This document shows positions 90-13,239 of a stretch of 26,184 nucleotides of DNA, in pieces. The translations under genes and the position numbers were made by a program. Source of the DNA: a virus. Within the stretch, counting starts at the first letter, position 1. The number at the start of each line of letters is the position of its first letter. Location: positions 1-26,184 of the IMG/VR virus record IMGVR_UViG_3300017782_000185, one strand, 5' to 3'. A model generated the notes under the pieces. The model saw only the letters and a program-made list of their open reading frames with translations, made no database searches and was not told the origin of the DNA.

Positions 90-829
90 TGAATAACGAC
101 AAGAAATTCCACTGGTTTCCATTCTACTACCAAGCATGGATGACAGACATGAACGTGCAGATGCTCTCACACTCTGAGAAGGGTCTGTATATTGATATGC
201 TATGCTCATGCTTTAATGAGGATGGGCTACCTACTGATCACAAGATGCTCAAACGTCTCTTTAAATGTGATGAGGATGACCTGCAAATGGTGGTCACTTT
301 ATTCCATGAGCGTGACGGAAAGCTACACAATAAGAAGCTGGATGAAATCAAGGCTGATCAAGCTGAAGTATCCAAGAAAAAGAGTGAAGCAGGCAAGGCA
401 TCTGCACAAGCACGTAAGGCTAAACGACTTGCACAAGTAACACCTGTTGAACACGTGTTAAAATCTGTTGCAACAGAACCTCAACAGAATCCAACTAGTA
501 GAGTAGAGGAGAGTAGAGAAGAGAAGAGTAAAGAAAAAGACTCTAACGCATCTGACGATGCTGTAGTTTTGATCTGGGATAATTCTCCTAAGATTGCAAG
601 AGAGAGATCCAGTCGCAAACAGCTCGCTGAAGCTTGGAAAAAAATCAAAGAGAAACCCGACACTGCAACCTTGCAGAATGCTATGAACTGTTGGAACAAA
701 TCAGAATCATGGCTTGAAGGCTACGCTTGTGGTATCCACAGATGGGTTAAAAATGAGCAGTGGCTTGATTTGCCAGCACCTAAGCGATCTAAACCGAATC
801 AACAATTTCCAAGCCTAAAGGACATATGA
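89..829 (+). CDS. DUF1376 (YdaU-like) phage replication protein
   Basis: This 246-aa protein begins with a DUF1376-type domain at about residues 8-75. Features are HWFPFYYQAWMTD, an aromatic segment followed by a helix containing EKGLYIDMLC, then GLPTD. Proteins of this family commonly sit next to DnaB helicases or helicase loaders in phages and are thought to act in replication initiation, though the biochemical role is poorly defined. Residues about 90-150 are highly charged (many K, E, Q, S), so probably a flexible linker or coil. The C-terminal 70 residues, with WKKIKEKP and GIHRWVKNEQWLD, look like a second folded domain. The start has no Shine-Dalgarno sequence but overlaps the upstream stop as TAATG. 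It overlaps the next ORF by ATGA. Family placement is good; the exact role is inferred from the neighbouring helicase. Confidence 0.7.
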   Translation: MNNDKKFHWFPFYYQAWMTDMNVQMLSHSEKGLYIDMLCSCFNEDGLPTDHKMLKRLFKCDEDDLQMVVTLFHERDGKLHNKKLDEIKADQAEVSKKKSEAGKASAQARKAKRLAQVTPVEHVLKSVATEPQQNPTSRVEESREEKSKEKDSNASDDAVVLIWDNSPKIARERSSRKQLAEAWKKIKEKPDTATLQNAMNCWNKSESWLEGYACGIHRWVKNEQWLDLPAPKRSKPNQQFPSLKDI

Positions 830-981
830 AAACACAAGAACACGAAGAAATACACAACCGCCTCGACCAGCTATCTGCTGAGTTCGATAAACAAATACTA
901 ATCAACCCAACCAAAGCAAAAGAGTTACTGATCCACTTCATGGATCTAGTGAGCCTTAACTTCAAACAAATCCAAAAATGA
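826..981 (+). CDS. 51-aa hypothetical protein between replication genes
   Basis: A short ORF filling exactly the space between the DUF1376 gene and the helicase. It overlaps both neighbours by ATGA (826-829 and 978-981), which strongly suggests translational coupling and a real gene. AAGGA lies a few bases upstream of the ATG. The product is helical and charged (starting MKTQEHEEIHNRLDQL, then AKELLIHFMDLV) with amphipathic heptad-like spacing, compatible with a small coiled-coil partner protein. No family is recognised. Its position suggests a helicase-associated or loader accessory role, but this is inference only. Confidence 0.6.
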   Translation: MKTQEHEEIHNRLDQLSAEFDKQILINPTKAKELLIHFMDLVSLNFKQIQK

Positions 982-2222
982 AATTCACCAACACAATATC
1001 AGAGGATTACGTAGCATCTGGCGTGATCAATTCACCAGAGAAGGTGATACCAACCTTAAGGGGTGAGGGTGTTAATGCAGACTATTTTCACAACTACCTA
1101 CCCAAGCTGGTTTGGCGTGTAGCCAATAACCTGTTCGATGATGAGAAGTTTAACGAGATTGAAATGCTTGAATTTTCAGACCAGATCAAGGGTGTAGATG
1201 ATGGCGATGAGTTGATGCATGAGATATCCAAGATCCGCAGGCACTGGTGTGGTCATGAGGCGATGAAACCACACATCAAAACCCTCAGAGAGATGTATGC
1301 TACCCGCTTTGCTCATAAATCGCTCACAGAGAGCTTGGAGGCACTTGAGGGGGGTGAGTTACCAGAAAACATTTCAGACGCATCACAGGGGCTAAGAGAG
1401 GGCATTATGGCGATTCTGACAAACCAGTCTAGCTACAAGAATGCAGAACAGTCCACTGAGGAGTTCGCTGATCTGCTTCGAGCTATCCACAAAGACAAGT
1501 CCACATCGGGCATTCCCAGTGGCATACCATTGATTGATAACGTGACAGGTGGCTTAGGTAAGAACGAGCTATGGATCGTTGGCGCACCAACATCATGTGG
1601 TAAGACAGTCCTCATGTTACAAGTCATGGCATCCTTTTTACGACAGGACAAGAACGTGCTGATGTATTCGCTTGAGACTGAGGCGAACATGATACACGCC
1701 AGACTGGTAGCTAACCTTGAAACGATTGATATGGGACGGATACTAGGGAAAACAAACAACCCGCTTATCAAGTCGGATCTGATCAAAATGCGTGACTACA
1801 TGGAGGAAATGAAGAAGCGTGACAATCTAATTATCTGTGATGAGGATTCACAAAACCTAGACAGTATACAGGCGAAGGCACAACAGATCAACGAGGTAAC
1901 GCCAGTTGACTTGATTGTGGTGGACTACATACAGCTAGTCAACGTCTCCAATACAAGGGACAAGGCACGCCATGAGCAGGTGGCAGAGGTTACTCGAACC
2001 ATGAAGCAGATGGCAAAGAAATTCCAATGTCCAATCCTCACAGCGACACAGCTAAACGATGATGGACGTGTTCGGGAGTCTAGGGCGATCTCACATGATG
2101 CAGACGTATTGCTTCTCATCGGGGAGGAAGGTCAGGGCATCCACGTGGCAAAGAATCGCTCTGGGGAGCGTGGTCACACACTTGATCTAAACCTTAACGG
2201 AGGCTACCAGAGATTCTCGTAA
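978..2222 (+). CDS. DnaB-like replicative DNA helicase
   Basis: A 414-aa protein with the features of a hexameric 5'-3' DnaB-family helicase, which unwinds the replication fork. The N-terminal ~100 residues resemble a short DnaB N domain. The RecA-like motor has Walker A GAPTSCGKT at 202-210, SLETE at about 231-235, Walker B LIVVDYIQL at 312-320, the sensor-like TATQLNDD at 355-362, RESRAISHDADVLLL at 366-380, and AKNRSGERG near 391-399, which corresponds to the arginine-containing loop of DnaB proteins. At 414 aa it is slightly shorter than cellular DnaB (about 450-470), as is common in phages. The start overlaps the preceding stop as ATGA. It implies that primase is a separate protein, not visible here, or comes from the host. 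Confidence 0.93.
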   Translation: MKFTNTISEDYVASGVINSPEKVIPTLRGEGVNADYFHNYLPKLVWRVANNLFDDEKFNEIEMLEFSDQIKGVDDGDELMHEISKIRRHWCGHEAMKPHIKTLREMYATRFAHKSLTESLEALEGGELPENISDASQGLREGIMAILTNQSSYKNAEQSTEEFADLLRAIHKDKSTSGIPSGIPLIDNVTGGLGKNELWIVGAPTSCGKTVLMLQVMASFLRQDKNVLMYSLETEANMIHARLVANLETIDMGRILGKTNNPLIKSDLIKMRDYMEEMKKRDNLIICDEDSQNLDSIQAKAQQINEVTPVDLIVVDYIQLVNVSNTRDKARHEQVAEVTRTMKQMAKKFQCPILTATQLNDDGRVRESRAISHDADVLLLIGEEGQGIHVAKNRSGERGHTLDLNLNGGYQRFS

Positions 2223-2716
2223 TGAGTAAGCAATCACAATGGATAGGCTCACCTGCATGGGAACGTGGTCAAAAGGTAGAGAGGGATTTCGAGCGTTTAT
2301 TGGTAAAGAGAGATCCAAACTACCGCAGAGCAACAGAGCAAGAGCAATACAGGCACATTGATTTCAAGACCTATTTCGGAACGATTGACGTAAAGGCTAA
2401 GAAAAGACTGAGTCGAGCATCACGCATACAGGAGGAAAAGCTGTGGCTTGAGTTCAAGAACGTGCAAGGCAAACATGGATGGCTTACTGCTCCGCATTTG
2501 GATGTCGTAGCATTTGAGAGGGACGAATCATTCGTTCTGGTCAAGCGTGTCGAGCTACTGGAACTGGCGGACAATCTTTGTGACTTGTCCCACATGGTAG
2601 AGTCTACTGATCACGCCATGTATAGGGGCTACAGTCGCAAGGGGCGCAAGGATTTGCTCAGTGTGATTAAGATGAGTGATCTGCAATTTATCAACTACAA
2701 AGTATGGAGAAAATGA
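2222..2716 (+). CDS. PD-(D/E)XK nuclease-like protein
   Basis: A 164-aa protein whose pattern fits a small PD-(D/E)XK nuclease fold. There is an N-terminal helix with Glu20, then Asp47 (in HIDFKTYFG), then a strand with Asp56-Val-Lys58 (TIDVKAKKR). This gives the E...D...DxK arrangement that binds metal and cuts phosphodiester bonds. LEFKNVQGKHGWL (76-88) looks like a conserved second core segment. The family is known from phages as restriction-like or resolvase-like nucleases; the substrate cannot be deduced. It starts at TAATG on the helicase stop and ends at ATGA with the HNH gene, so it is translated with the replication operon. The main doubt is whether it processes replication or packaging intermediates or attacks host DNA. 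Confidence 0.55.
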   Translation: MSKQSQWIGSPAWERGQKVERDFERLLVKRDPNYRRATEQEQYRHIDFKTYFGTIDVKAKKRLSRASRIQEEKLWLEFKNVQGKHGWLTAPHLDVVAFERDESFVLVKRVELLELADNLCDLSHMVESTDHAMYRGYSRKGRKDLLSVIKMSDLQFINYKVWRK

Positions 2717-3306
2717 AACATTGTTCCGACTGTAACACAGAGAAACCACTCTCCGATTTCAACAAGCGTAGAGCGTCCAAGGACGGACTACAGCCTAAAT
2801 GCAGGGCTTGCGACAACATCAGAAGCTTGAACAGGTATGCACTCAAGGCGGAGGATGCAAGGGAATATTATCAGCGTAACAAAAAGCGAATCACACAGGT
2901 GCAGTTGAAGTATCAAAAGAAACGCTACGAAAACGATCCAGAATACAACTTGATTAGGAGGACAAGGCGAAGAGTGATCAATGCACTGGATGGTATCGGT
3001 AAGGATGCCAGCACAATGGAGCTGTTAGGTTGCACTGCACGACAATTTCGGGAGCATATCGAGTCTCAGTTTGTAGACGGCATGGCGTGGGGACAGCGTG
3101 GAAGCTGGTCGGTTGACCACTATATTCCAATCTCAGCATTCGACATGACCAAGCCAAAACACCAGCGGTATGCGTTCCATTGGAGTAACTGTCAACCACT
3201 GTGGACTCATGAAAATTTGAGCAAGGCGGACAAATATTGCCCTAAAGAACTAAAAAAATATCTGGCTTCACCCCTTATGGAATATAGGGAAAAGGGGAAA
3301 AGGTAA
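2713..3306 (+). CDS. HNH endonuclease with N-terminal CxxC zinc motif
   Basis: With the ATG at 2713 the product is 197 aa. This start forms an ATGA overlap with the preceding stop and has GGAGA just upstream, so it is preferred over the in-frame ATG at 2704 (200 aa). In 2704 numbering, Cys7/Cys10 and Cys33/Cys36 form a small zinc ribbon (HCSDC ... KCRAC) of a type often found before phage HNH domains. A basic linker follows, then the HNH core with Asp138-His139 (WSVDHYIPIS), Asn162 (HWSNCQPLW) and Asn171 (HENLSKADK). Such enzymes nick or cut DNA and may be free-standing homing endonucleases or packaging helpers. The 3' end overlaps the first copy of the 53-bp upstream element. No intron is seen near it. 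Confidence 0.8.
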   Translation: MKHCSDCNTEKPLSDFNKRRASKDGLQPKCRACDNIRSLNRYALKAEDAREYYQRNKKRITQVQLKYQKKRYENDPEYNLIRRTRRRVINALDGIGKDASTMELLGCTARQFREHIESQFVDGMAWGQRGSWSVDHYIPISAFDMTKPKHQRYAFHWSNCQPLWTHENLSKADKYCPKELKKYLASPLMEYREKGKR

Positions 3307-3328
3307 AAAAAGATTAAAATAGTTCTTG
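3276..3328 (+). repeat. 53-bp upstream element, copy A
   Basis: This stretch overlaps the last codons of the HNH gene and runs into the promoter region. Compared without gaps to 4912-4964 it matches at about 39 of 53 positions. The best-kept parts are TATGGAATA at the start and AAAAAAGAT/AAAATAGTT at the end. Both copies end in TTG and sit upstream of a block of small genes, so a shared regulatory role is likely. Confidence 0.6.
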
Positions 3329-3353
3329 CAATAAATAAACGACTTGCTATTCT
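3326..3353 (+). promoter_or_regulatory. sigma70-like promoter of the first small-gene block
   Basis: TTGCAA (3326-3331), a 16-bp spacer and TATTCT (3348-3353) make a fair sigma70-type promoter. Transcription would start near 3360, about 22 bases before the ATG at 3382. The palindrome GTGATCAC (3354-3361) lies directly at the predicted start point and could be an operator. The A/T-rich 53-bp element sits immediately upstream. Confidence 0.5.
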
Positions 3354-3381
3354 GTGATCACCGCAAGGAACACAACACATT

Positions 3382-3615
3382 ATGAAAACAGCAAACAGAA
3401 AAATAGACAATCATCACAAGTTCATACCCACTAACGAAGCCAAGGTTGCTGAATTGCAAGTAGGTAACGTGATTAGAACTAGGGAAGCTATTGGTGAAGT
3501 CATCAGCGTAATTGAATCTGGAGCATTTCGCCAGCTCACGCTCGACACAATACAAGGAAAAGAAATACAGATATCTAAAAAAACAAGTGATTTTGTTGAT
3601 CTTTATATGTATTAA
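3382..3615 (+). CDS. 77-aa hypothetical protein
   Basis: First gene of the accessory block, closely downstream of a promoter and followed 19 bases later by a terminator hairpin, so it looks like a short unit of its own. The ATG is preceded by ACATT and a distant AAGGA, not a normal ribosome binding site. The product begins with a charged stretch and then has a segment of likely small beta-strands (AELQVGNVIRTREAIGEVIS, RQLTLDTIQGKEIQI). This is compatible with a compact SH3-like or KOW-like beta fold, but that is only an impression from strand-glycine spacing. No family is recognised. Confidence 0.6.
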   Translation: MKTANRKIDNHHKFIPTNEAKVAELQVGNVIRTREAIGEVISVIESGAFRQLTLDTIQGKEIQISKKTSDFVDLYMY

Positions 3616-3634
3616 GCTACAACCCAACCCACTA

Positions 3635-3663
3635 CCCTGCTAGGTCAAACTAGCGGGGCTTTT
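3635..3663 (+). terminator. Rho-independent terminator
   Basis: CCCTGCTAG (3635-3643) pairs with CTAGCGGGG (3650-3658) around a six-base loop, giving 9 pairs with one G-T, followed by CTTTT. An outer ACCCAA/TTGGGT pairing extends it. The T tract is short, so some read-through into the following small genes is expected; those have no clear promoter of their own. Confidence 0.75.
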
Positions 3664-3677
3664 GGGTGTAAGACATT

Positions 3678-3770
3678 ATGAAACTAATACTCGACTATAT
3701 CGGATATACGATTACCTTCGCACTTATCGGATTCTTCTTCTTCGTGCTTGTGCCAATCGCTTTTAACTAA
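3678..3770 (+). CDS. 30-aa single-membrane-span peptide
   Basis: The ORF reads MKLILDYIGYTITFALIGFF and continues to a total of 30 residues, almost all of it one hydrophobic helix with a short polar start. It begins with the same (A)CATTATGAA context as its neighbours at 3382 and 3775, and ends 4 bases before the next ORF, which supports it being translated. Tiny phage membrane peptides can act in lysis, superinfection exclusion or membrane remodelling; nothing in the sequence picks one. Too short for a family call. Confidence 0.45.
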   Translation: MKLILDYIGYTITFALIGFFFFVLVPIAFN

Positions 3771-3774
3771 CATT

Positions 3775-3906
3775 ATGAACACAACAAAAACAGGCATCAT
3801 TGCCATAACTATTATGCTCACATTTCTAGTGGGCTTCGGGATCGGACATCGCCTCTGCCAGCAGATGTGGGAAAGATCAATACAGGAACAAATACACAAC
3901 CACTAA
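3775..3906 (+). CDS. 43-aa small membrane protein
   Basis: A 43-residue ORF with one predicted transmembrane helix (TGIIAITIMLTFLVGFGIG) near the N-terminus and a charged, helical tail (HRLCQQMWERSIQEQ). The short N-terminus with one lysine suggests N-in topology, or a signal-anchor with the tail in the periplasm. The latter would resemble a small spanin- or holin-like protein, but no lysis partner is visible. It follows the 30-aa membrane peptide directly and shares its start context. Reality is supported by packing and start context; function is unknown. Confidence 0.5.
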   Translation: MNTTKTGIIAITIMLTFLVGFGIGHRLCQQMWERSIQEQIHNH

Positions 3907-3908
3907 TT

Positions 3909-4190
3909 ATGAACGCAACACCATTACCATACGAGGCTATTGAGAACAATGGTCATTACACCTTCGCCAATGGGCAGAGGGTTGAGACAGATGAGATCGC
4001 CGTTTACGGCATTGAGGCATCTCCGCACATTACTGACACAGACCCAGATTGCTGTGAGATCGGCAGTATGCTGGTAAACGATGGCGAGTGGCGTGATGCC
4101 ACTGCGGAGGAACTAGCTGAGATCAATGACGATCGCCTCTACATGGATGATCTCGTTACCAATATTGTTAAAGAATTAACTGACTACTAA
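3909..4190 (+). CDS. 93-aa acidic hypothetical protein
   Basis: The start is taken at the ATG 3909 (MNATPLPYEAIENNG), two bases after the previous stop; the frame extends further upstream to 3867, but that would overlap the membrane-peptide gene. The protein is very acidic and ends in DGEWRDATAEELAEINDDRL. A related ending, PATDEEIDALDGSLWYDEIL, occurs in the next gene. This ending recalls small acidic phage proteins with a 'glycine-x-x-A-T/L-T-x-E-E-L' helix start. The pair may be diverged duplicates. No enzyme motif is visible. It has no Shine-Dalgarno sequence. Confidence 0.65.
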   Translation: MNATPLPYEAIENNGHYTFANGQRVETDEIAVYGIEASPHITDTDPDCCEIGSMLVNDGEWRDATAEELAEINDDRLYMDDLVTNIVKELTDY

Positions 4191-4191
4191 T

Positions 4192-4389
4192 ATGATAACT
4201 AAAGAACAAGCTACAAGCCCAGTGATCTCAGACCTTGTCATTGACGGGGCTGACATGAGGGACTACCCAGACTTTGCGGACGCGTTTATCGTGTCCTGCT
4301 CCATTGACGGAGTGCCTGCCACTGACGAAGAGATCGATGCACTTGATGGCTCACTCTGGTATGACGAAATTTTACAGTCAATATTATGA
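4192..4389 (+). CDS. 65-aa acidic hypothetical protein, related to its upstream neighbour
   Basis: This acidic ORF starts one base after the previous stop and overlaps the next gene (ATG 4386, TGA 4387-4389), so all three are likely translated together. Its C-terminal half, VPATDEEIDALDG, resembles the C-terminal half of the preceding protein, suggesting a duplication followed by divergence. It has a central segment DFADAFIVSCSIDG predicted as beta-strand. No catalytic residues are recognisable. High negative charge would suit a protein-binding or DNA-mimic role, but this is speculation. Confidence 0.6.
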   Translation: MITKEQATSPVISDLVIDGADMRDYPDFADAFIVSCSIDGVPATDEEIDALDGSLWYDEILQSIL

Positions 4390-4586
4390 ACAAAAACATA
4401 GAAAACGAGAATAAGGATTTCGCTTGGGACTTTTGTCTCGACAACGAAATAGCAAGCGAACAGGAACTAGTCCTAGCCACAAAACTCAAAGGTTTCAGCT
4501 GGGACACGATCATGGACGTGATTTTTATCCGAACTGGCTACAATGACATCGAACAATATGTCGAGATGGAGGGAGGTGCAGAATGA
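4386..4586 (+). CDS. 66-aa hypothetical protein
   Basis: An ORF overlapping its neighbours on both sides (4386-4389 and 4583-4586), part of the same translated block. The product, with EQELVLATKLKGFSWDTIMD and then TGYNDIEQY, is predicted mostly helical and acidic. Its last codons, for EGGAE, contain the GGAGG that serves as ribosome binding site for the next gene. No family is recognised. Confidence 0.6.
   Translation: MNKNIENENKDFAWDFCLDNEIASEQELVLATKLKGFSWDTIMDVIFIRTGYNDIEQYVEMEGGAE
4572..4576 (+). promoter_or_regulatory. Perfect Shine-Dalgarno site for the 4583 gene
   Basis: GGAGG lies six bases upstream of ATG 4583, inside the end of the preceding gene. It stands out because most starts in this window have no such site, so this gene may be translated more strongly or may come from a different source. 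Confidence 0.7.
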
Positions 4587-5500: not shown

Positions 5501-5565
5501 CGTCAAACCAAAACAAATAGAAAACAAAAACAATGAAATAACGAAACAATCCAAGCATCGACAAG

Positions 5566-5597
5566 AACCCGCTTCCTTAACTGGAGGCGGGTTTTTT
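5566..5597 (+). terminator. Strong Rho-independent terminator
   Basis: AACCCGCTTCC (5566-5576) pairs with GGAGGCGGGTT (5583-5593) around TTAACT, giving 11 pairs with one G-T, and runs into TTTTTT. It closes the accessory block; the next promoter begins only six bases later. Confidence 0.9.
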
Positions 5598-5602
5598 GTG
5601 TC

Positions 5603-5631
5603 TTTACAAAGTGCATACATTAGGCTATGGC
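5603..5631 (+). promoter_or_regulatory. Promoter placing +1 on the ATG at 5638
   Basis: TTTACA (5603-5608), 17-bp spacer, TATGGC (5626-5631), then six bases (TTGTGC) and ATG. The usual distance puts transcription start on the A of the start codon. The -10 match is moderate, but the geometry equals that at 5821 and 7611. Confidence 0.5.
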
Positions 5632-5637
5632 TTGTGC

Positions 5638-5841
5638 ATGGAAAACATCCAGCCCAAGATAGACCGCCTAAGCTACTACGCACGACCGACTGAGGACGTA
5701 GCGCATGACCCATTGATAGATACCAGTGAGGACTGCATAGCCCAGCAGTATGAATGGAGTGAGGATCACGTAGCACTAGGTGAGGGTGGATTCCAGCGCA
5801 AGAACGTGATTGGTGATGAGTTGACTGATGAGATGCTGTAG
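5638..5841 (+). CDS. 67-aa hypothetical protein before the terminase genes
   Basis: The start at ATG 5638 (MENIQPKIDRLSYYARP) is favoured over upstream GTG codons, which would lie between the terminator and the promoter. The protein is acidic (many D and E) with no recognisable domain; SEDHVALGEGGFQRKNV is its most distinctive segment. The last codons contain the -35 hexamer of the terminase promoter, and the gene ends 14 bases before the terminase start. It is predicted to be made from a leaderless message. Position next to terminase suggests a packaging or late-switch accessory protein, which is inference. Confidence 0.6.
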   Translation: MENIQPKIDRLSYYARPTEDVAHDPLIDTSEDCIAQQYEWSEDHVALGEGGFQRKNVIGDELTDEML

Positions 5842-5849
5842 CGTATAAT
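5821..5849 (+). promoter_or_regulatory. Near-consensus promoter with +1 on the terminase ATG
   Basis: TTGACT (5821-5826), 17-bp spacer and a perfect TATAAT (5844-5849) form the best promoter of the window. Six bases (GTTGCC) separate it from ATG 5856, so the message should begin exactly with the start codon. It overlaps the end of the previous gene. Confidence 0.75.
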
Positions 5850-5855
5850 GTTGCC

Positions 5856-6227
5856 ATGAATCCACGTCAAAGGAAGTTTGTAAAGCTGTGGTTGACTGGT
5901 ATGCCAGCAGGCAGAGCGTATGAGAAAGCAGGCTACGAGGTTAAGGGATCTACGGCAGATGTTTGTGGATCACAGTTATTGAAAAATCCTAAGGTAAAAG
6001 CACATATTAATAAAATGAATGAGAAGGCAGAAAAGTCCACAATTAAGACAGTTAAAGAGCGCAAGGAGATGCTATCTCGCATCATGGACAAGGCAGAGGA
6101 CACTGAGCGTCTACAGGACGCGATTAGAGCCAGTGCAGAACTGTCCAAGATGGATGGAGCATACGAACACGTAGAGCAACTAGGCACGATCAAGATAAAC
6201 ATCGGTGGCGATGACAAGGCGGAATGA
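5856..6227 (+). CDS. terS: Terminase small subunit
   Basis: A 123-aa protein that should recognise phage DNA and load the large terminase. The N-terminal region (RQRKFVKLWLTGMPAGRAYEKAGYEV, then GSQLLKNPKV and HINKM) matches the helix-turn-helix and 'LLKNPKV' pattern of the Terminase_2 family (typically 'F...Y..G..A..A...AGY......G..LL..P.V...I'). The middle (about 60-105) is predicted coiled and helical for oligomerisation. It overlaps the large subunit by ATGA, the usual arrangement. The start lies directly after a consensus promoter and has no ribosome binding site, so translation is probably leaderless. At about 120-150 aa, family size is normal. Confidence 0.85.
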   Translation: MNPRQRKFVKLWLTGMPAGRAYEKAGYEVKGSTADVCGSQLLKNPKVKAHINKMNEKAEKSTIKTVKERKEMLSRIMDKAEDTERLQDAIRASAELSKMDGAYEHVEQLGTIKINIGGDDKAE

Positions 6228-7543
6228 GCCAAGATGTTGAGATAGATATAAACCCTCGCGAGCCCTTCCGAGAGTTTCTGACCACTAAAAAGAGGTGGTT
6301 AACGCTTGTATGCCATCGTAGAGCAGGTAAGACTGTAGCATCGGTGCAGAGGTTGGTATACTGCGCACTTACACACAAGCGAGCGGGCATGGATCATGCG
6401 CCATTGCGTTATGCCTACATTGCGCCCACACAGGTGCAGGCTAAGTCCATTTGTTGGCAATACTTCAAGCAGGCTTGTTCATCAATTCCAGACGTTAAGA
6501 TCAATGAGAGTGAACTGTCGGTGACATTCCCCAACCGAGCGCAGATTAAGCTATATTCGGGCGAGAGTTACGAGCGTATGCGGGGGCTATACTTTGACGG
6601 ATGTGTGAGCGATGAGGATGACGATATCCCTCAGAGCGCAATGAACTACGTGATTCTGCCATGTTTATTGGACTATTCGGGGTGGCATTGCTCAATGGGA
6701 ACGCCAAAGGGACGTGGAACGCTCTACAGGAACGTAAAGCGGGCAAAGACCGATGACAGTCGGTTCTGTCTCGTTCTCAGAGCCTCTACTAGCGGGATTA
6801 TCCCCAAAGATGACCTAGATGTGATCCGTGCAGAGATTGGCGAGGAAGCATATGCACAAGAGATGGAGTGCGATTTCAACGTGGCTAGGCAGGGAGCAAT
6901 CTACGCCAGTCACCTGCAAGACGCTGTTGACGATGGCAGGGTGTTCGACTTCACCCCAGACCAGTCTCACCTAGTGTTCACTACGTGGGATCTAGGCTCA
7001 CCCGCCAATACTGTCACATGTTACTGGCAAAAAATAGACCTTACCTATCGACTGATCGACTGTGACTTTGGTTTGGAGATGACTACAGCGGAGAGGGTGG
7101 CTCATATGTATGCGAAAGGCTATAACTTCGGACAACACTTCCTGCCACATGACGGTAAGACCAAGGGAGCGGACAATATGTCGTTCGCATCTAAACTGCG
7201 TGACGCTGGACTTCAGAACGTCGAGGTGCTAGACAATGCTGGACAAGGTGCTGAGGCTAAGCGTATCCGCTCCATGCATGACATCTTCCCCCAGATATAC
7301 TTCAATAAGACAGCTTTAGACGTTGAGGAAGGGATGTTTGACGCATTGCGTGACTACCACTACAAGGAACAGCGTATAGATGGACGTATCACCAGCAAGG
7401 TGGATCATGGCTTCGCTTCTCACTTTTGTGATGCCTTTGGCTACTTCTCCGAGGCACTAGCGTCTGGTCGTATGCGTTGCAACCTAACTAAGCGTGGCAT
7501 AGGCAGAGCCAAGTCATCACTTGGATCATCCATGCGTAGGTAG
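6224..7543 (+). CDS. terL: Terminase large subunit (ATPase and nuclease)
   Basis: A 439-aa packaging motor. The ATPase domain has Walker A CHRRAGKTVA at 30-39 and Walker B with Asp130-Glu131 (YFDGCVSDEDDDIP); the coupling segment GTPKGRG is at about 159-165. The C-terminal RNase H-like nuclease has Asp256 (TTWDLGSPANT), Asp310 (FLPHDGKTKG) and Asp403 (HFCDAFGYF), the acidic residues expected to bind the metal pair that cuts concatemers. Length is within the range for this family (420-600). It is translated by ATGA overlap with the small subunit. The closest general type is the large terminase with a compact nuclease seen in many podo- and siphoviruses; the packaging mode (ends or headful) cannot be told from this. 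Confidence 0.95.
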   Translation: MSQDVEIDINPREPFREFLTTKKRWLTLVCHRRAGKTVASVQRLVYCALTHKRAGMDHAPLRYAYIAPTQVQAKSICWQYFKQACSSIPDVKINESELSVTFPNRAQIKLYSGESYERMRGLYFDGCVSDEDDDIPQSAMNYVILPCLLDYSGWHCSMGTPKGRGTLYRNVKRAKTDDSRFCLVLRASTSGIIPKDDLDVIRAEIGEEAYAQEMECDFNVARQGAIYASHLQDAVDDGRVFDFTPDQSHLVFTTWDLGSPANTVTCYWQKIDLTYRLIDCDFGLEMTTAERVAHMYAKGYNFGQHFLPHDGKTKGADNMSFASKLRDAGLQNVEVLDNAGQGAEAKRIRSMHDIFPQIYFNKTALDVEEGMFDALRDYHYKEQRIDGRITSKVDHGFASHFCDAFGYFSEALASGRMRCNLTKRGIGRAKSSLGSSMRR

Positions 7544-7551
7544 AGTCCAAT

Positions 7552-7583
7552 ATTTCACGTATTGACCTGCCAACTTGTGAAAT
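7552..7583. promoter_or_regulatory. Inverted repeat downstream of the large terminase
   Basis: ATTTCAC (7552-7558) and GTGAAAT (7577-7583) form a perfect 7-bp inverted repeat 18 bp apart, in the 103-base gap before the portal operon. It encloses TTGACCT, which is itself mirrored by AGGTCAA at 7617-7623 in the promoter. There is no T tract, so an operator is more likely than a terminator. Confidence 0.35.
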
Positions 7584-7610
7584 GATGTCCTTACATTGTG
7601 ATCACTAAGC

Positions 7611-7640
7611 TTGACAAGGTCAACGTATTTATGTTATGAA
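7611..7640 (+). promoter_or_regulatory. Promoter placing +1 on the ATG at 7647
   Basis: A consensus TTGACA (7611-7616), 18-bp spacer and TATGAA (7635-7640), then six bases (CAGTGC) and ATG. The predicted first base is the A of the start codon. The -35 box forms the dyad TTGAC-aag-GTCAA, and the palindrome GTGATCAC lies just upstream at 7598-7605, both plausible operator sites. Confidence 0.6.
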
Positions 7641-7646
7641 CAGTGC

Positions 7647-7832
7647 ATGGGCAGTAAACCGAAAGCACCGAAACCAGCCGCACCTCAAGCACAGATGGTA
7701 GACCTACAGTCAGAGGGCGAGCGATCTGGAGTCTCAAACTTTGAGGCAGAGCTAAAGAAGCGTAGAAAGCAGACACAGACCAAGATGGCAGGCGAGACTG
7801 GCGGATATGGTGGTAACACACAACTAGGATAA
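7647..7832 (+). CDS. 61-aa small protein preceding the portal
   Basis: The protein starts MGSKPKAPKPAAPQAQ, a Pro/Ala/Lys-rich flexible stretch, and ends with KKRRKQTQTKMAGETGGYGG. Short proteins with a 'KAPKP' beginning and a basic, then glycine-rich tail are common next to portal or internal virion genes in podoviruses, where they are usually small structural or unassigned proteins. The frame could extend to a TTG at 7611, but that TTG is the -35 box of the promoter, so the ATG at 7647 is chosen. The portal GTG follows its stop without a gap. Confidence 0.65.
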   Translation: MGSKPKAPKPAAPQAQMVDLQSEGERSGVSNFEAELKKRRKQTQTKMAGETGGYGGNTQLG

Positions 7833-9479
7833 GTGGACGGACAATACGTCATATCCAAGCGTGATGCGCTAAAGCATTACCGCGCACCGCACGAGCAACT
7901 CTGGGATGAGGTAGCAGAGCTATCCATGCCGAGGAAGGTCTCTATTGCAGGTGGGCAAGGGACTCTCCCGCCCATGATCGACTCCGCTCAACTGCATGAC
8001 AGCACGCTACGCACTGCGTCATTGATGCTTGCCAATGGATTCTGCTCTCTCGTGACCCCTCGTGAGGAGGTATGGCACAATCTGACCCCACCTAAGGCAC
8101 TGCGTGAGAACGACAGTGTCATCAAGTTTTATCGTGAATGCTCCGAGGAGATCACGTATCGCCTAGAGCAATCCAACTTCTACACAGAGATCCAAGAGGT
8201 CTACCTAGACAGATCCGCAATGGGAACTGGTCTGGACTTCTCCGAGTGGGATGCAGAGAACGAGGAGTTAAACTTCCGTCATCTACCCATCGGCACGTAT
8301 TACATCGGTCAAGACCATCGTGGGCGCTGTGATGCAGTCGTTTACGAGTGTAATTACACCGCAGTGCAGGCGGCAGGCGAGTTTGGTATTGAGAACCTGC
8401 CAGAGAAGCTACAGCGTGAAGCTAAAGACCCTAAGTGCAATGAGAGTCATGTATTCGTCATCTGTGTGGATAAGGTCAACGCATGGGAGGAACAGTCACC
8501 ATTCCCATACAAGATGGTCTGCGCCCATGAGGACAGTAAGAAGATCGTTCATGAGCAGGGATACTACGAGATGCCTGCACACGTCACACGCTACCTTAAG
8601 TGGGGTAATAGCCCGTATGGCTTTGCACCTACATGGGTAGCACTGCCAGAGGCGCATAAGCTTTCATTCCTACAGAAACAGATGGACGTGCTTGCTGAGA
8701 AAGCGGCAAACCCACCGATACTTGCACCTGCCAGCATGGAGGGTGAAATTGGCGTAGGAGCACTGGATATTACCTATGTTAACGACCTAGATCCAAACCG
8801 CTCGCCACGTGAATGGCAGACGGCAGGACGTTACGACATCGGACAAGACAGAATTGAACAGAAGAAGAAGGCAATCATGGAGATCATGCACGGAGATCTG
8901 TTCAGACTCTTTGCTCAGATTGAGCGTCAGATGACTGCGACCGAAGCCACACTGCGACAGGCAGAGAAGGTGATGCAGTTTAGCCCGACATTCTCACGTC
9001 TGACTAGCGAATACCTTGACCCTAAGCTACGTAGAATCTTCTCAATCCTATGGAGGCAGGGTGTCATGCCCGAAGCACCAGAGGAGATCCAGATGGTCAC
9101 ACAGGATCGTAGCGTAGTAGTTCCAGTTCCGAACATCGCCTACAATAACCGAATTTCACTAGCCATTAAAGCCCAGCAGAACACAGCATACGCTGAGTTT
9201 ATGGCAATGAACCAGTCCACTGTCGAGATGAACCCAGAGATTCTGGATAACCTAGATGGTGACGCACACTTCCGTGATAGCTGGCGTAATGCTGGACTGC
9301 CCGAAGACGGACTACGCTCACAAGAAGAGGTAGCAGAGACACGACAAGCTAGGGCAGAGCAACAAGCTCAAATGCAACAGATGGAGCAAGCACAACAAGC
9401 CGCATCAATGCTTAAGGACGCATCAGCCGCCAATGGTGGCGAGATCCCCGAAGGTATAGGTGAGGCACTGCAAGGATAA
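7833..9479 (+). CDS. Head-tail connector (portal), T7 gp8-like
   Basis: A 548-aa protein, close to T7 gp8 in size, that should form the dodecameric ring through which DNA enters and leaves the capsid. Typical segments are EQLWDEVAELSMPR near 20-33, DSTLRTASLMLANGF (about 56-70), a 'TPPREEVWHNL'-like region, FRHLPIGTYYIGQD (about 149-162), GNSPYGFAPTWVALPEAHKL, and the helical ATEATLRQAEK followed by the crown-like C-terminus rich in Gln and Met. It starts with GTG directly after the previous TAA (TAAGTG) with AGGA three bases upstream; the next in-frame ATG would delete conserved sequence. The Gln-rich tail (EQQAQMQQMEQAQQA) may be disordered. Confidence 0.92.
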   Translation: MDGQYVISKRDALKHYRAPHEQLWDEVAELSMPRKVSIAGGQGTLPPMIDSAQLHDSTLRTASLMLANGFCSLVTPREEVWHNLTPPKALRENDSVIKFYRECSEEITYRLEQSNFYTEIQEVYLDRSAMGTGLDFSEWDAENEELNFRHLPIGTYYIGQDHRGRCDAVVYECNYTAVQAAGEFGIENLPEKLQREAKDPKCNESHVFVICVDKVNAWEEQSPFPYKMVCAHEDSKKIVHEQGYYEMPAHVTRYLKWGNSPYGFAPTWVALPEAHKLSFLQKQMDVLAEKAANPPILAPASMEGEIGVGALDITYVNDLDPNRSPREWQTAGRYDIGQDRIEQKKKAIMEIMHGDLFRLFAQIERQMTATEATLRQAEKVMQFSPTFSRLTSEYLDPKLRRIFSILWRQGVMPEAPEEIQMVTQDRSVVVPVPNIAYNNRISLAIKAQQNTAYAEFMAMNQSTVEMNPEILDNLDGDAHFRDSWRNAGLPEDGLRSQEEVAETRQARAEQQAQMQQMEQAQQAASMLKDASAANGGEIPEGIGEALQG

Positions 9480-11065: not shown

Positions 11066-11278
11066 ATGGATAAAGAATTACAACCATCGTCATCACAGAA
11101 CGATATTACTGGCGATCACATTATCACAGGAGTGAGTAATGAAACCTACCGAAAAGGCTGGGATCGTATATTTGGGGAAAAGTATGAACCAAATAATGAG
11201 TCGAATGACCCCAATGATGGGTCTAAAGGCTGTCACGACTGGAGTGAGGACAAGCCAAGGAATAAGTGGATTAGGTAG
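11066..11278 (+). CDS. 70-aa small phage protein with YRxGWDRIFG motif
   Basis: The ATG at 11066 follows the terminator by 10 bases; upstream codons in the same frame belong to the terminator. The product is acidic and polar, with TGVSNETYRKGWDRIFGEKY in the middle. A 'YR..(W/Y)DRIFG' motif occurs in small proteins near head genes of marine podoviruses (from memory, not searched). The tail NESNDPNDGSKGCHDWSEDK is probably disordered. The last codons (WIR, then TAG) overlap the first copy of a direct repeat. A different forward frame (11139-11459) overlaps most of it but has poorer composition and spans the repeats, so this frame is preferred. Confidence 0.55.
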   Translation: MDKELQPSSSQNDITGDHIITGVSNETYRKGWDRIFGEKYEPNNESNDPNDGSKGCHDWSEDKPRNKWIR

Positions 11279-11302
11279 ACAGATAGTCTTTAATCACTTT
11301 AA
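11268..11302. repeat. 35-bp direct repeat, copy 1
   Basis: Identical at 34 of 35 bases to 11325-11359, with only a 22-bp gap between the copies (57-bp period). Read on the minus strand it repeats the codons for KVIKDYLST plus the TAA stop of the minus-strand gene, so it is a second copy of that gene's 3' end. The following 22 bases also show weak similarity to the sequence after copy 2. Confidence 0.9.
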
Positions 11303-11324
11303 AACATCCATTACGGATTATCAA

Positions 11325-11359
11325 GGATTAGGTAGACAGGTAGTCTTTAATCACTTTAA
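11325..11359. repeat. 35-bp direct repeat, copy 2
   Basis: The copy that forms the actual 3' end of the minus-strand gene (stop at 11328-11330). It differs from copy 1 by one base (AGGTAG against AGATAG). Confidence 0.9.
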
Positions 11360-11546
11360 TTTGATCCTTAGGTATCTGAGAGCAGGTCTTAACCACCCAA
11401 TTAAGATATGGTTTGGGTATCTTGTCGCTTGTAATGCCTTTGTATTTACCAAAGGTTAAGGCGAACCTTTTAGAGTTACCTATTACTGGCTGAGAGTATA
11501 TACCCTCATGCCTATCCCCTTTAGTAATGCGTCTGTTGTGCTTCAT
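11328..11546 (-). CDS. DUF3820-like small protein, only minus-strand gene
   Basis: A 72-aa protein read against the direction of every other gene. Its centre, ALTFGKYKG...DKIPKPYLNWVVKT, fits the DUF3820 pattern ('FGK.KG....IP..YL.W......'), a small domain also found at the C-terminus of some exonuclease X-like proteins and in phages. Function is unknown, possibly nucleic-acid linked. The N-terminus (MKHNRRITKGDRHEG) is basic. The ATG has no Shine-Dalgarno site and the frame continues upstream past a TAA. Its last ten codons, stop included, are duplicated just downstream. It looks like an acquired cargo (moron-like) gene between the scaffold and capsid genes. The family call rests on one clear motif. 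Confidence 0.65.
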   Translation of the reverse strand: MKHNRRITKGDRHEGIYSQPVIGNSKRFALTFGKYKGITSDKIPKPYLNWVVKTCSQIPKDQIKVIKDYLST

Positions 11547-11564
11547 TTGCTTATGTTTAATTGG

Positions 11565-11753
11565 TTAATATCCTATTAGATGTTTTAGCCTATCAACATC
11601 CAGTAAGTAAAGATACCCCTTAAAAGAGATACCGATTTTACATACTGAACATTGGATTGGTCATTCTCCTTTTAGAGAGGTTTTGAGCCGTTGACTAGCA
11701 AAGTTTGATACAGGTAAGCCATGACTCTTACGAGCCTTTACAACCTGCCAGAA
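11565..11753 (-). pseudogene. Decayed minus-strand coding frame upstream of the DUF3820-like gene
   Basis: In the same minus frame as the 11328-11546 gene, two further open stretches lie upstream. One (11568-11660) has a CSVC pair followed by LDVDRLKHLIGY; the other (11664-11753) has KARKSHGLPVSNFASQRLKT. They are separated by TAA (11565-11567) and TGA (11661-11663). Neither has a start codon in frame, yet the composition looks protein-like. AAAAGGAGAATG on the minus strand near 11665 offers a good start in a neighbouring frame that stops after eight codons. This suggests a broken zinc-ribbon or HNH-type gene, but random open sequence is a real alternative. Confidence 0.25.
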
Positions 11754-11994
11754 CTAGATCCAGCCAAGACACACATCTAAGTGCCTTGGAGCTTTTGTTC
11801 TTACGAACGTCACACATATAGACTGGAAACTATATGGTTGGCGGTAGCGGAGAGCAACTGATCATCAGAAATTACTGTCCGCATTGTAATGCATATATGT
11901 TGCAGGTGCATGACCTGTGGGTAAAAAGAAACCCCAGTAAGTGGATACGGCACCTACTGGGGAATTATACTATTATGAAACGGCTCTTTCGAGC
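11711..11994. other. Hairpin-rich interval, possible structured RNA
   Basis: At least six good stem-loops follow one another. They are GTAAG/CTTAC (11714-11731); GTTC/GAAC (11797-11808); CATATAG/CTATATG with an 8-base loop (11815-11836); GCGGA/TCCGC (11847-11882) enclosing CTGA/TCAG; CAGGT/ACCTG (11903-11917); CCCCAGTA/TACTGGGG (11932-11962); and GCTC-TTTC-GAGC (11983-11994). No known RNA family or tRNA is recognised. It may be a noncoding RNA, an RNA control region, or chance enrichment in A/T- and G/C-mixed DNA. Confidence 0.35.
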
Positions 11995-12004
11995 AACACT
12001 ATAA
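11834..12004 (+). CDS. Possible 56-aa CxxC protein
   Basis: An ORF beginning MVGGSGEQLIIRNYCPHCNA and continuing with MLQVHDLWVKRNPSKW. The CPHC pair could be half of a zinc ribbon; GGA lies about eight bases before the ATG. However, the ATG sits in the 3' arm of the CATATAG hairpin and the ORF spans several stem-loops, including a near-perfect 8-bp stem, which argues for RNA structure rather than coding. It could be a translated ORF under structural control, a fragment, or chance. Confidence 0.25.
   Translation: MVGGSGEQLIIRNYCPHCNAYMLQVHDLWVKRNPSKWIRHLLGNYTIMKRLFRATL
11922..11962 (-). terminator. Terminator-like hairpin, minus-strand orientation
   Basis: CCCCAGTA (11932-11939) pairs perfectly with TACTGGGG (11955-11962), and GTG/CAC extends it inward. 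Read on the minus strand, the stem is followed by TTTCTTTTTA, a good T tract. On the plus strand the following bases are only A/T-mixed. It could stop minus-strand transcripts coming from the capsid side before they reach the DUF3820-like gene. Confidence 0.5.
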
Positions 12005-12077
12005 AAAAACTCCGAAGCTCCGTGTCAACCTCTGCACTGATAATGACATAGATCCATAGCATGGTCAACATCTAATT

Positions 12078-12091
12078 TGCACTAAAGTGCA
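12078..12091. promoter_or_regulatory. Palindrome upstream of the capsid promoter
   Basis: TGCACT-AA-AGTGCA is a perfect 6-bp inverted repeat ending 14 bases before the -35 box of the capsid promoter. Looser complementarity (CAACATCTAA before, TTAGTTGGATGT after) extends it. Position suggests an operator or an upstream terminator without a T tract. Confidence 0.45.
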
Positions 12092-12105
12092 TTTAGTTGG
12101 ATGTA

Positions 12106-12134
12106 TTGACTTTGTATTATTTTTGTGTTATGAA
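12106..12134 (+). promoter_or_regulatory. Promoter of the capsid gene
   Basis: TTGACT (12106-12111), 17-bp T-rich spacer and TATGAA (12129-12134). The -10 context GTTATGAA is the same as in the portal promoter at 7633-7640. Transcription would start near 12141, leaving a leader of about 175 bases, unlike the leaderless promoters upstream. Confidence 0.65.
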
Positions 12135-12201
12135 TAAGACGTTCAAACGAAGGACACTGCCGAATTAGTTTTATTTAAAGGATAGAATTAGGACGCACCC
12201 T

Positions 12202-12264
12202 GATCAAGAACGCCAATCTACCCGATTAGCGACCGCTTAAACTAAGCGATACTCTTGCTCAATC
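12202..12264 (+). promoter_or_regulatory. Structured leader of the capsid message
   Basis: Within the 175-base leader, CGCTTA/TAAGCG (12234-12248, 3-base loop) forms a hairpin. Around it CAAGA (12205-12209) pairs with TCTTG (12253-12257) and GAT (12202-12204) with ATC (12262-12264). No long ORF lies in the leader; the last 40 bases are A/T-rich and unstructured up to the ATG. It could stabilise the message or help initiation without a Shine-Dalgarno site. Confidence 0.35.
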
Positions 12265-12315
12265 TGGTGCAACAAAACCTAATTATTATCATTAAAATTA
12301 TAACAAACTAATATC

Positions 12316-13239
12316 ATGGCATTTACATCAACTGTCCCAGAACATTTCCCCTCGCTCTACCAAGATGAGTGGAAATTAGAACTACAACAACTCACTTCAC
12401 GCCTACAAGGTCTTGTGCCTACGTATGCAGTGCAAGGTGAATCCCGCCGTTTCAACAAACTTGGCAAAGTCGAAAGCTCCCCAATGACAGGACGCTTCCA
12501 AGACTCTGCACCACAAGACGTTGTAACTGAAATGCGTTCACTCTACGTGGACTTCCGCACTGTTGAAAACTTTGTTTCCAAGGTTGACAGCATTCGTCTT
12601 GGCGAGATTGACTCTCCTCACAACGCAATCATTAAGTCGCACATGGCGGCGGCTGGTCGTGATCGTGATGCGGCAATCATCGCTATGCTTGGCGGTTCTG
12701 CTTACGAAGGCAAGAACGGCACAACTGAAGTAGTCTTTGACACTGCTAACCAAAGCATTGCTAAGAACTACAACCATGACGGAACTACTACTGACGAAGG
12801 ACTTACCTACGACAAGATCGTTAACGCTCGCGCCCGTCTCGGTAGCAAGAACGTTGCTGGTCAAAACGTTGAGGGTTCTAGCCCACTCGGTATGGTCATC
12901 ACTCACGATGAAGTAGAGGATCTCCTCCACGATGACAAGTTCATCAATCGTGACTATCGTGCAAAGCTTGAAGAAGCTCAGTCTGGTAGCATTGTTGACG
13001 CATTCGGATTCACCATCATCGCTGTCGATTCAAGCCTTCTGCCAGCTTCAGCAGGCACACGTGCTTGTTACGCATTTGCTAAGGACTGTGTAGCCTTCGG
13101 TTATGCCGCTAATCCAGAGACATTTGTTGACATCCTTCCAACCAAACGCCACGACACACAGATTCGTTCTGAGTGGGCATGGGGTGGAACTCGTCTTGAT
13201 GACGAAGGTGTTATCCAAATCAATGTTGACCGCTCTTAA
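12316..13239 (+). CDS. Major capsid protein
   Basis: A 307-aa protein of the HK97-fold coat type used by many podoviruses outside the strict T7 group. Recognisable parts are MAFTSTVPEHFPSLYQDEWK at the start, the E-loop-like region with RRFNKLGK and SPMTGRFQDSAPQD, VDSIRLGEID, HMAAAGRDRDAAIIAMLGG, and near the end FGYAANPETFVDILPTKRHD followed by WGGTRLDDEGV. The gene is read from its own promoter and is separated from the scaffold by an unusual 1.3-kb interval. Codons (GTT, CGT, GAC, TTC, AAC preferred) look optimised compared with its neighbours, as expected for the most abundant protein. The start has no Shine-Dalgarno sequence (AACTAATATC before ATG). Confidence 0.9.
   Translation: MAFTSTVPEHFPSLYQDEWKLELQQLTSRLQGLVPTYAVQGESRRFNKLGKVESSPMTGRFQDSAPQDVVTEMRSLYVDFRTVENFVSKVDSIRLGEIDSPHNAIIKSHMAAAGRDRDAAIIAMLGGSAYEGKNGTTEVVFDTANQSIAKNYNHDGTTTDEGLTYDKIVNARARLGSKNVAGQNVEGSSPLGMVITHDEVEDLLHDDKFINRDYRAKLEEAQSGSIVDAFGFTIIAVDSSLLPASAGTRACYAFAKDCVAFGYAANPETFVDILPTKRHDTQIRSEWAWGGTRLDDEGVIQINVDRS

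Follow-up and report, generated by a model that had tools for sequence, protein, structure and literature searches.

Sigma-70-type promoters placed directly against start codons probably give leaderless or near-leaderless mRNAs for three transcription units of the phage analysed here, and the arrangement recurs across its relatives. The window, by which we mean the whole stretch of DNA analysed, is a linear virus record of 26,184 bases. Protein matches place it with podovirus-like phages and identify, in a row on one strand, a DnaB-like helicase, the small and large terminase subunits, portal, capsid and tail genes. Among isolated phages even the nearest, all of them pelagiphages, are only distantly related, with identities of at most about 28% in the portal, about 32-38% in the terminase and about 25% in the capsid, and a nucleotide search of isolated phages with the window returned no match. 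A group of close relatives was gathered by scanning viral collections with the terminase, portal and capsid proteins. One contig in this group (L119-L121, IMGVR_UViG_3300025654_000017) carries at 269-4571 of its reverse complement a second virion-like gene set, recognized by eye and seemingly another phage's, beside the group's own capsid gene, and may be chimeric. Searches of bacterial genomes for a host gave no match with the portal protein and, with the terminase alignment, only scattered MAG contigs from different phyla.

The three promoters lie on the plus strand. An intrinsic terminator (5563..5596, plus strand), with a 14-pair stem and a T run, closes the upstream unit just 5' of the first promoter, P1, and a GC-rich hairpin followed by T's also stands 5' of the TTTACA box in relatives when these are read by eye. 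P1 (TTTACA-17-TATGGC, 5603..5631) has its boxes at 5603-5608 and 5626-5631 and leaves six bases to the ATG at 5638, which opens a 67-aa ORF (5638..5841) predicted to be leaderless. Most relatives in which this ORF occurs have homologues of about 69-93% identity; its product had no match in PHROG or Pfam and, used as a query, gained no further relative. P2 (TTGACT-17-TATAAT, 5821..5849; boxes 5821-5826 and 5844-5849) has its -35 box inside the 67-aa ORF, at the 3' end, and stops six bases before the ATG at 5856 of terS, the terminase small subunit gene (5856..6227; phrog_51, E 1.4e-20), likewise predicted leaderless. The gene for the large subunit, terL, follows (6224..7543; phrog_2, E 3.2e-29). 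P3 (TTGACA-18-TATGAA, 7611..7640; boxes 7611-7616 and 7635-7640), with a TGT before the -10 that makes a TGn extended -10, again leaves six bases to an ATG, at 7647, which begins a predicted leaderless gene for a 61-aa pre-portal protein (MGSKPKAPKPAAP...; 7647..7832) that relatives likewise keep between their terL and portal genes. The portal, or head-tail connector, gene comes next with a GTG start (7833..9479; phrog_332, E 1.9e-93). A preliminary description of this DNA had given these coordinates, hexamers, spacers and six-base gaps, and all proved correct at the three sites when the sequence was rechecked.

All three sites have TTGACA/TATAAT-like boxes, at spacings of 17, 17 and 18 bases that fall within the 16-18 of sigma-70-type promoters, and are conserved. 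P2 (11/12 consensus matches) and P3 (10/12) are strong; P1 (8/12, with only 3/6 in the -10) is weak alone, yet conserved. A Bacteroidetes-type promoter (TAnnTTTG) was dropped by eye, the conserved boxes fitting TTGACA/TATAAT. Sites matching the consensus at 10/12 or better number only six on the plus strand of the 26 kb, and two of these stand exactly six bases 5' of one of the 30 gene starts. When the gene starts were shifted circularly through all 26,184 positions, only the unshifted arrangement gave two such sites at that distance, and all three sites at 8/12 or better were equalled in 94 of the 26,184 shifts. P1 is not significant alone, because 264 sites in the window are equally good (at least 8/12) and about 0.3 would be expected at that spot over the 30 starts by chance. 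As a predicted promoter, P1 is rescued by its conservation in relatives.

For each gene the upstream regions were compared and distinct ones counted, a promoter for terS and for the pre-portal gene being defined by a score of at least 10/12. The pre-portal start in L033 and the terS start in L003 were set by hand; for the pre-portal gene of L005 the scoring chose a box 12 bases from the start, which later tables replace by the alternative TAGTGT at distance 10. The earlier claim that promoters abut the start codons of three genes was borne out in the relatives, with counts that are not independent because of shared ancestry: terS has such a promoter at a distance of 6-10 bases in 12 of 13 distinct upstream regions, the pre-portal gene at 6-10 bases in 18 of 20 (L005 included, and additionally L010), and the 67-aa gene carries TTTACA-17-TATGG[A/C] at distances of 6, 10 or 11 in 6 of 8 distinct relatives. 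Control starts had an abutting promoter in 0/18 cases for terL and 1/24 for portal. The layout is missing in L112 at terS, in L046 and L047 at the pre-portal gene, and in L003 at the 67-aa gene. Upstream of position 786 in L003 the terminator is kept while the abutting promoter is absent, possibly a natural switch to a leadered form.

Mean best scores reached 10.4 for terS and 9.7 for the pre-portal gene against 6.7-6.8 in dinucleotide shuffles, and 7.6 against 6.6 for the 67-aa gene. The layout is still conserved where the relatives' terminases have diverged to about 58% identity. Furthermore, when 2.9 million viral contigs were scanned with a DNA-only pattern for P3, 19 stretches matched; 17 came from this phage group and two were unrelated. 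The -35 box of P2 offers a further view, since its TTGAC contains a leucine codon at the end of the 67-aa ORF. This codon is TTG in 10/10 sequences, although TTG makes up 11% of leucine codons in the phage, and a leucine a few codons beyond the -35 varies among CTG, TTG, CTT, CTC, CTA and TTA. Codon usage here indicates that the -35 of P2 is under selection as DNA.

The distance from -10 to start codon is narrow but not fixed. The constant six-base gap proposed earlier holds in the window (6, 6 and 6) and fails in the relatives, where most gaps are 6-7 and some 8-11. Strong promoters in the group, counted over 2641 candidate starts, lie at distances of 6 (8), 7 (13), 8 (2), 9 (1), 10 (8) and 11 (1), with 0-2 at each other distance. 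Transcription starts were predicted by the usual rule of 7-8 bases after the -10 together with a pyrimidine-purine step, and such a step is found at position 7 or 8 in 37/40 listed sites. By this rule transcription is predicted to begin on the start codon itself at spacings of 6 and 7 (a leader of 0) and three to four bases 5' of it at 10 and 11, spacings of 8 or 9 being rare; leaders of 3-4 bases are therefore expected on some messages. In the window itself the computed +1 is the A of the ATG at all three genes, in agreement with the original prediction. The similarity once seen among the three six-base strings is a weak point, as these strings vary freely in relatives except for a pyrimidine right before the start codon. 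That base is C at all three promoters as against 3/26 other genes.

Translation of these messages would have to begin in a phage with no sign of Shine-Dalgarno use. Shine-Dalgarno-like tetramers precede 5/29 genes as against 92/575 of all ATGs; genes are thus not preceded by them more often than ATGs in general, which argues that the phage does not use them. At the three promoter-abutted starts there is no Shine-Dalgarno sequence, nor is there phage-wide enrichment. The -10-like hexamer about 6-7 bases before the start (hexamer start about 12 upstream) is that of TA-led leaderless genes. RNA folding of the first 50 bases leaves the AUG mostly unpaired and is not distinctive. The start of terL overlaps the stop of terS (ATGA) and the portal GTG abuts the stop of the 61-aa gene, an arrangement suggesting that terL is likely translationally coupled to terS, and portal likely to the 61-aa gene.

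The position of the start codons themselves bears on this reading. The ATG of terS is the earliest possible start in its frame and lies 14 bases 3' of the preceding stop. The -10 box of P3 itself contains an ATG, which is out of frame with the pre-portal gene in the window and in spacing-6 relatives, and the MG... start is consequently secure in the window; in most relatives with a spacing of 7 or 10 that ATG is in frame, making the start less secure. Lying 12-15 bases upstream, it could be the true start in many of these relatives.

From this arrangement we infer that the promoters fire, that transcription begins at the computed +1, that host polymerase is used and that leaderless messages are translated. 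The -10 box stands right next to the start codon of the gene that opens each of three short transcription units: the 67-aa ORF; terS-terL; and the 61-aa ORF with portal and onward. Sigma-70-type promoters of this kind would presumably be read by host RNA polymerase, which, starting 7-8 bases after the -10 at a pyrimidine-purine step, would begin at the A of the ATG in the window and produce a leaderless mRNA, and in some relatives would begin 3-4 bases earlier and produce a near-leaderless one. Ribosomes would then initiate on the AUG at the very 5' end of the message, with no Shine-Dalgarno sequence to guide them, and later genes would be reached by stop-start coupling. Messages for terS and the pre-portal gene may additionally come from upstream read-through transcripts.

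An unlikely alternative is that the promoters are real but their start sites scattered, giving very short leaders of 1-5 bases, with the loose spacing a product of compact intergenic space. The range of 6-11 in relatives fits this view, as does the best initiator at spacing 10, which would yield a three-base leader, mostly AUC. Spacings of 6 and 7 dominate, however, with a pyrimidine before the start codon, and the space ahead of the -35 is not always compact: from the terL stop to the -35 it measures 2-126 bases across relatives, and the -10-to-ATG gap stays at 6-10. Less probable still is that the genes are translated mainly on longer transcripts reading through from upstream, by coupling to the preceding cistron, the promoters adding little. 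The overlap of terL with the terS stop, the closeness of the terS start to the preceding stop and the placing of all genes on one strand would suit such a scheme; against it stand the conservation of the promoters, including the frozen TTG codon, the terminator before P1, and a distance from terL stop to pre-portal start of up to about 160 bases in some relatives. That the boxes are chance consensus matches without promoter function is hardly credible. P1 alone might be so explained, but the control genes and the codon test oppose the idea, and for P2 and P3 conservation is already contrary to it. Leaderless or near-leaderless mRNAs from promoters against start codons thus remain, in our view, the probable outcome.

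This arrangement is gene-specific, as the same promoter type sits about 180 bases before the capsid gene. A TTGACT-17-TATGAA promoter with TGn before its -10 (12106..12134, plus strand) lies 181 bases ahead of the major capsid protein gene (12316..13239, plus strand; phrog_3437, E 4.1e-35), for which a leadered transcript is predicted. The distance is 181-189 bases in the closest relatives, which belong to the same subgroup; others show variants or no clear match. The idea that late head genes as a class are leaderless accordingly fails, for the major capsid gene, the key head gene, has this conserved promoter far upstream. The promoter and the first part of the leader (cgttca...aggacactgc) recur in relatives, and an Rfam search that included the leader region gave no match. 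About 850 bases of the window before the capsid gene (11460-12316) are without a clear gene, and a terminator-like hairpin lies on the minus strand within this stretch (11932-11962). An imperfect direct repeat (attaggtagacag.tagtctttaatcactttaa) forms two adjacent copies at 11272-11360, 3' of the scaffold gene. As a tentative possibility, one promoter type may serve two translation classes of late genes, leaderless for low-copy packaging and portal proteins, the high-copy capsid gene having a conserved leader of about 180 bases, with the presence of a leader setting dosage or timing in a host without Shine-Dalgarno use.

Taken together, the sequences point to a real and conserved layout that likely yields leaderless or near-leaderless mRNAs. 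An uncultured phage group thereby joins the small number of phages in which leaderless layouts are repeated, and it provides a natural comparison, within one genome, of predicted leaderless and leadered virion genes behind promoters of one kind. Start-codon annotation benefits as well, as an ATG directly preceded by a -10 box is likely the true start.

The middle and late promoters of Thermus phage phiYS40 consist of a -10-like element only, and leaderless genes are widespread in the phylum of its host. Most middle and late messages of this phage are leaderless (Sevostyanova et al. 2007, as described in PMC3594737), whereas the present phages have full -35/-10 promoters and predicted leaderless messages for only some genes. 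Cluster O mycobacteriophages (Corndog and others) have three predicted leaderless promoters, PL1, PR2 and PL2, one of them in the structural operon (PMC4351075); their host is actinobacterial and the genes are unrelated, and leaderless status is predicted in both cases. The preliminary statement that no phage uses such a layout repeatedly was therefore wrong. The leaderless phage message of lambda cI comes from one gene only, for the repressor of a temperate phage, while those predicted here serve virion assembly. In HTVC010P-type pelagiphages, among the nearest isolates (TerL about 32%, portal about 27-28%, capsid about 25% identity), no abutting promoter was found by eye at the corresponding genes of HTVC010P. 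In many bacteria a -10 box lies immediately ahead of the start of leaderless (TA-led) genes (PMC3160421), and experiments in Deinococcus radiodurans have shown that leaderless expression is driven by -10 motifs located about 6-7 bp ahead of ORFs (PMC12340547). The present phages resemble these systems in the -10 about 6-7 bases before the ORF and the lack of a Shine-Dalgarno sequence, but those genes are chromosomal and mostly without a -35, whereas the phage promoters have good -35 boxes. Leaderless phage messages were thus known before; the unusual feature here is that, in a phage lacking Shine-Dalgarno sequences, their predicted use is confined to particular genes, next to a capsid gene with a predicted leader.
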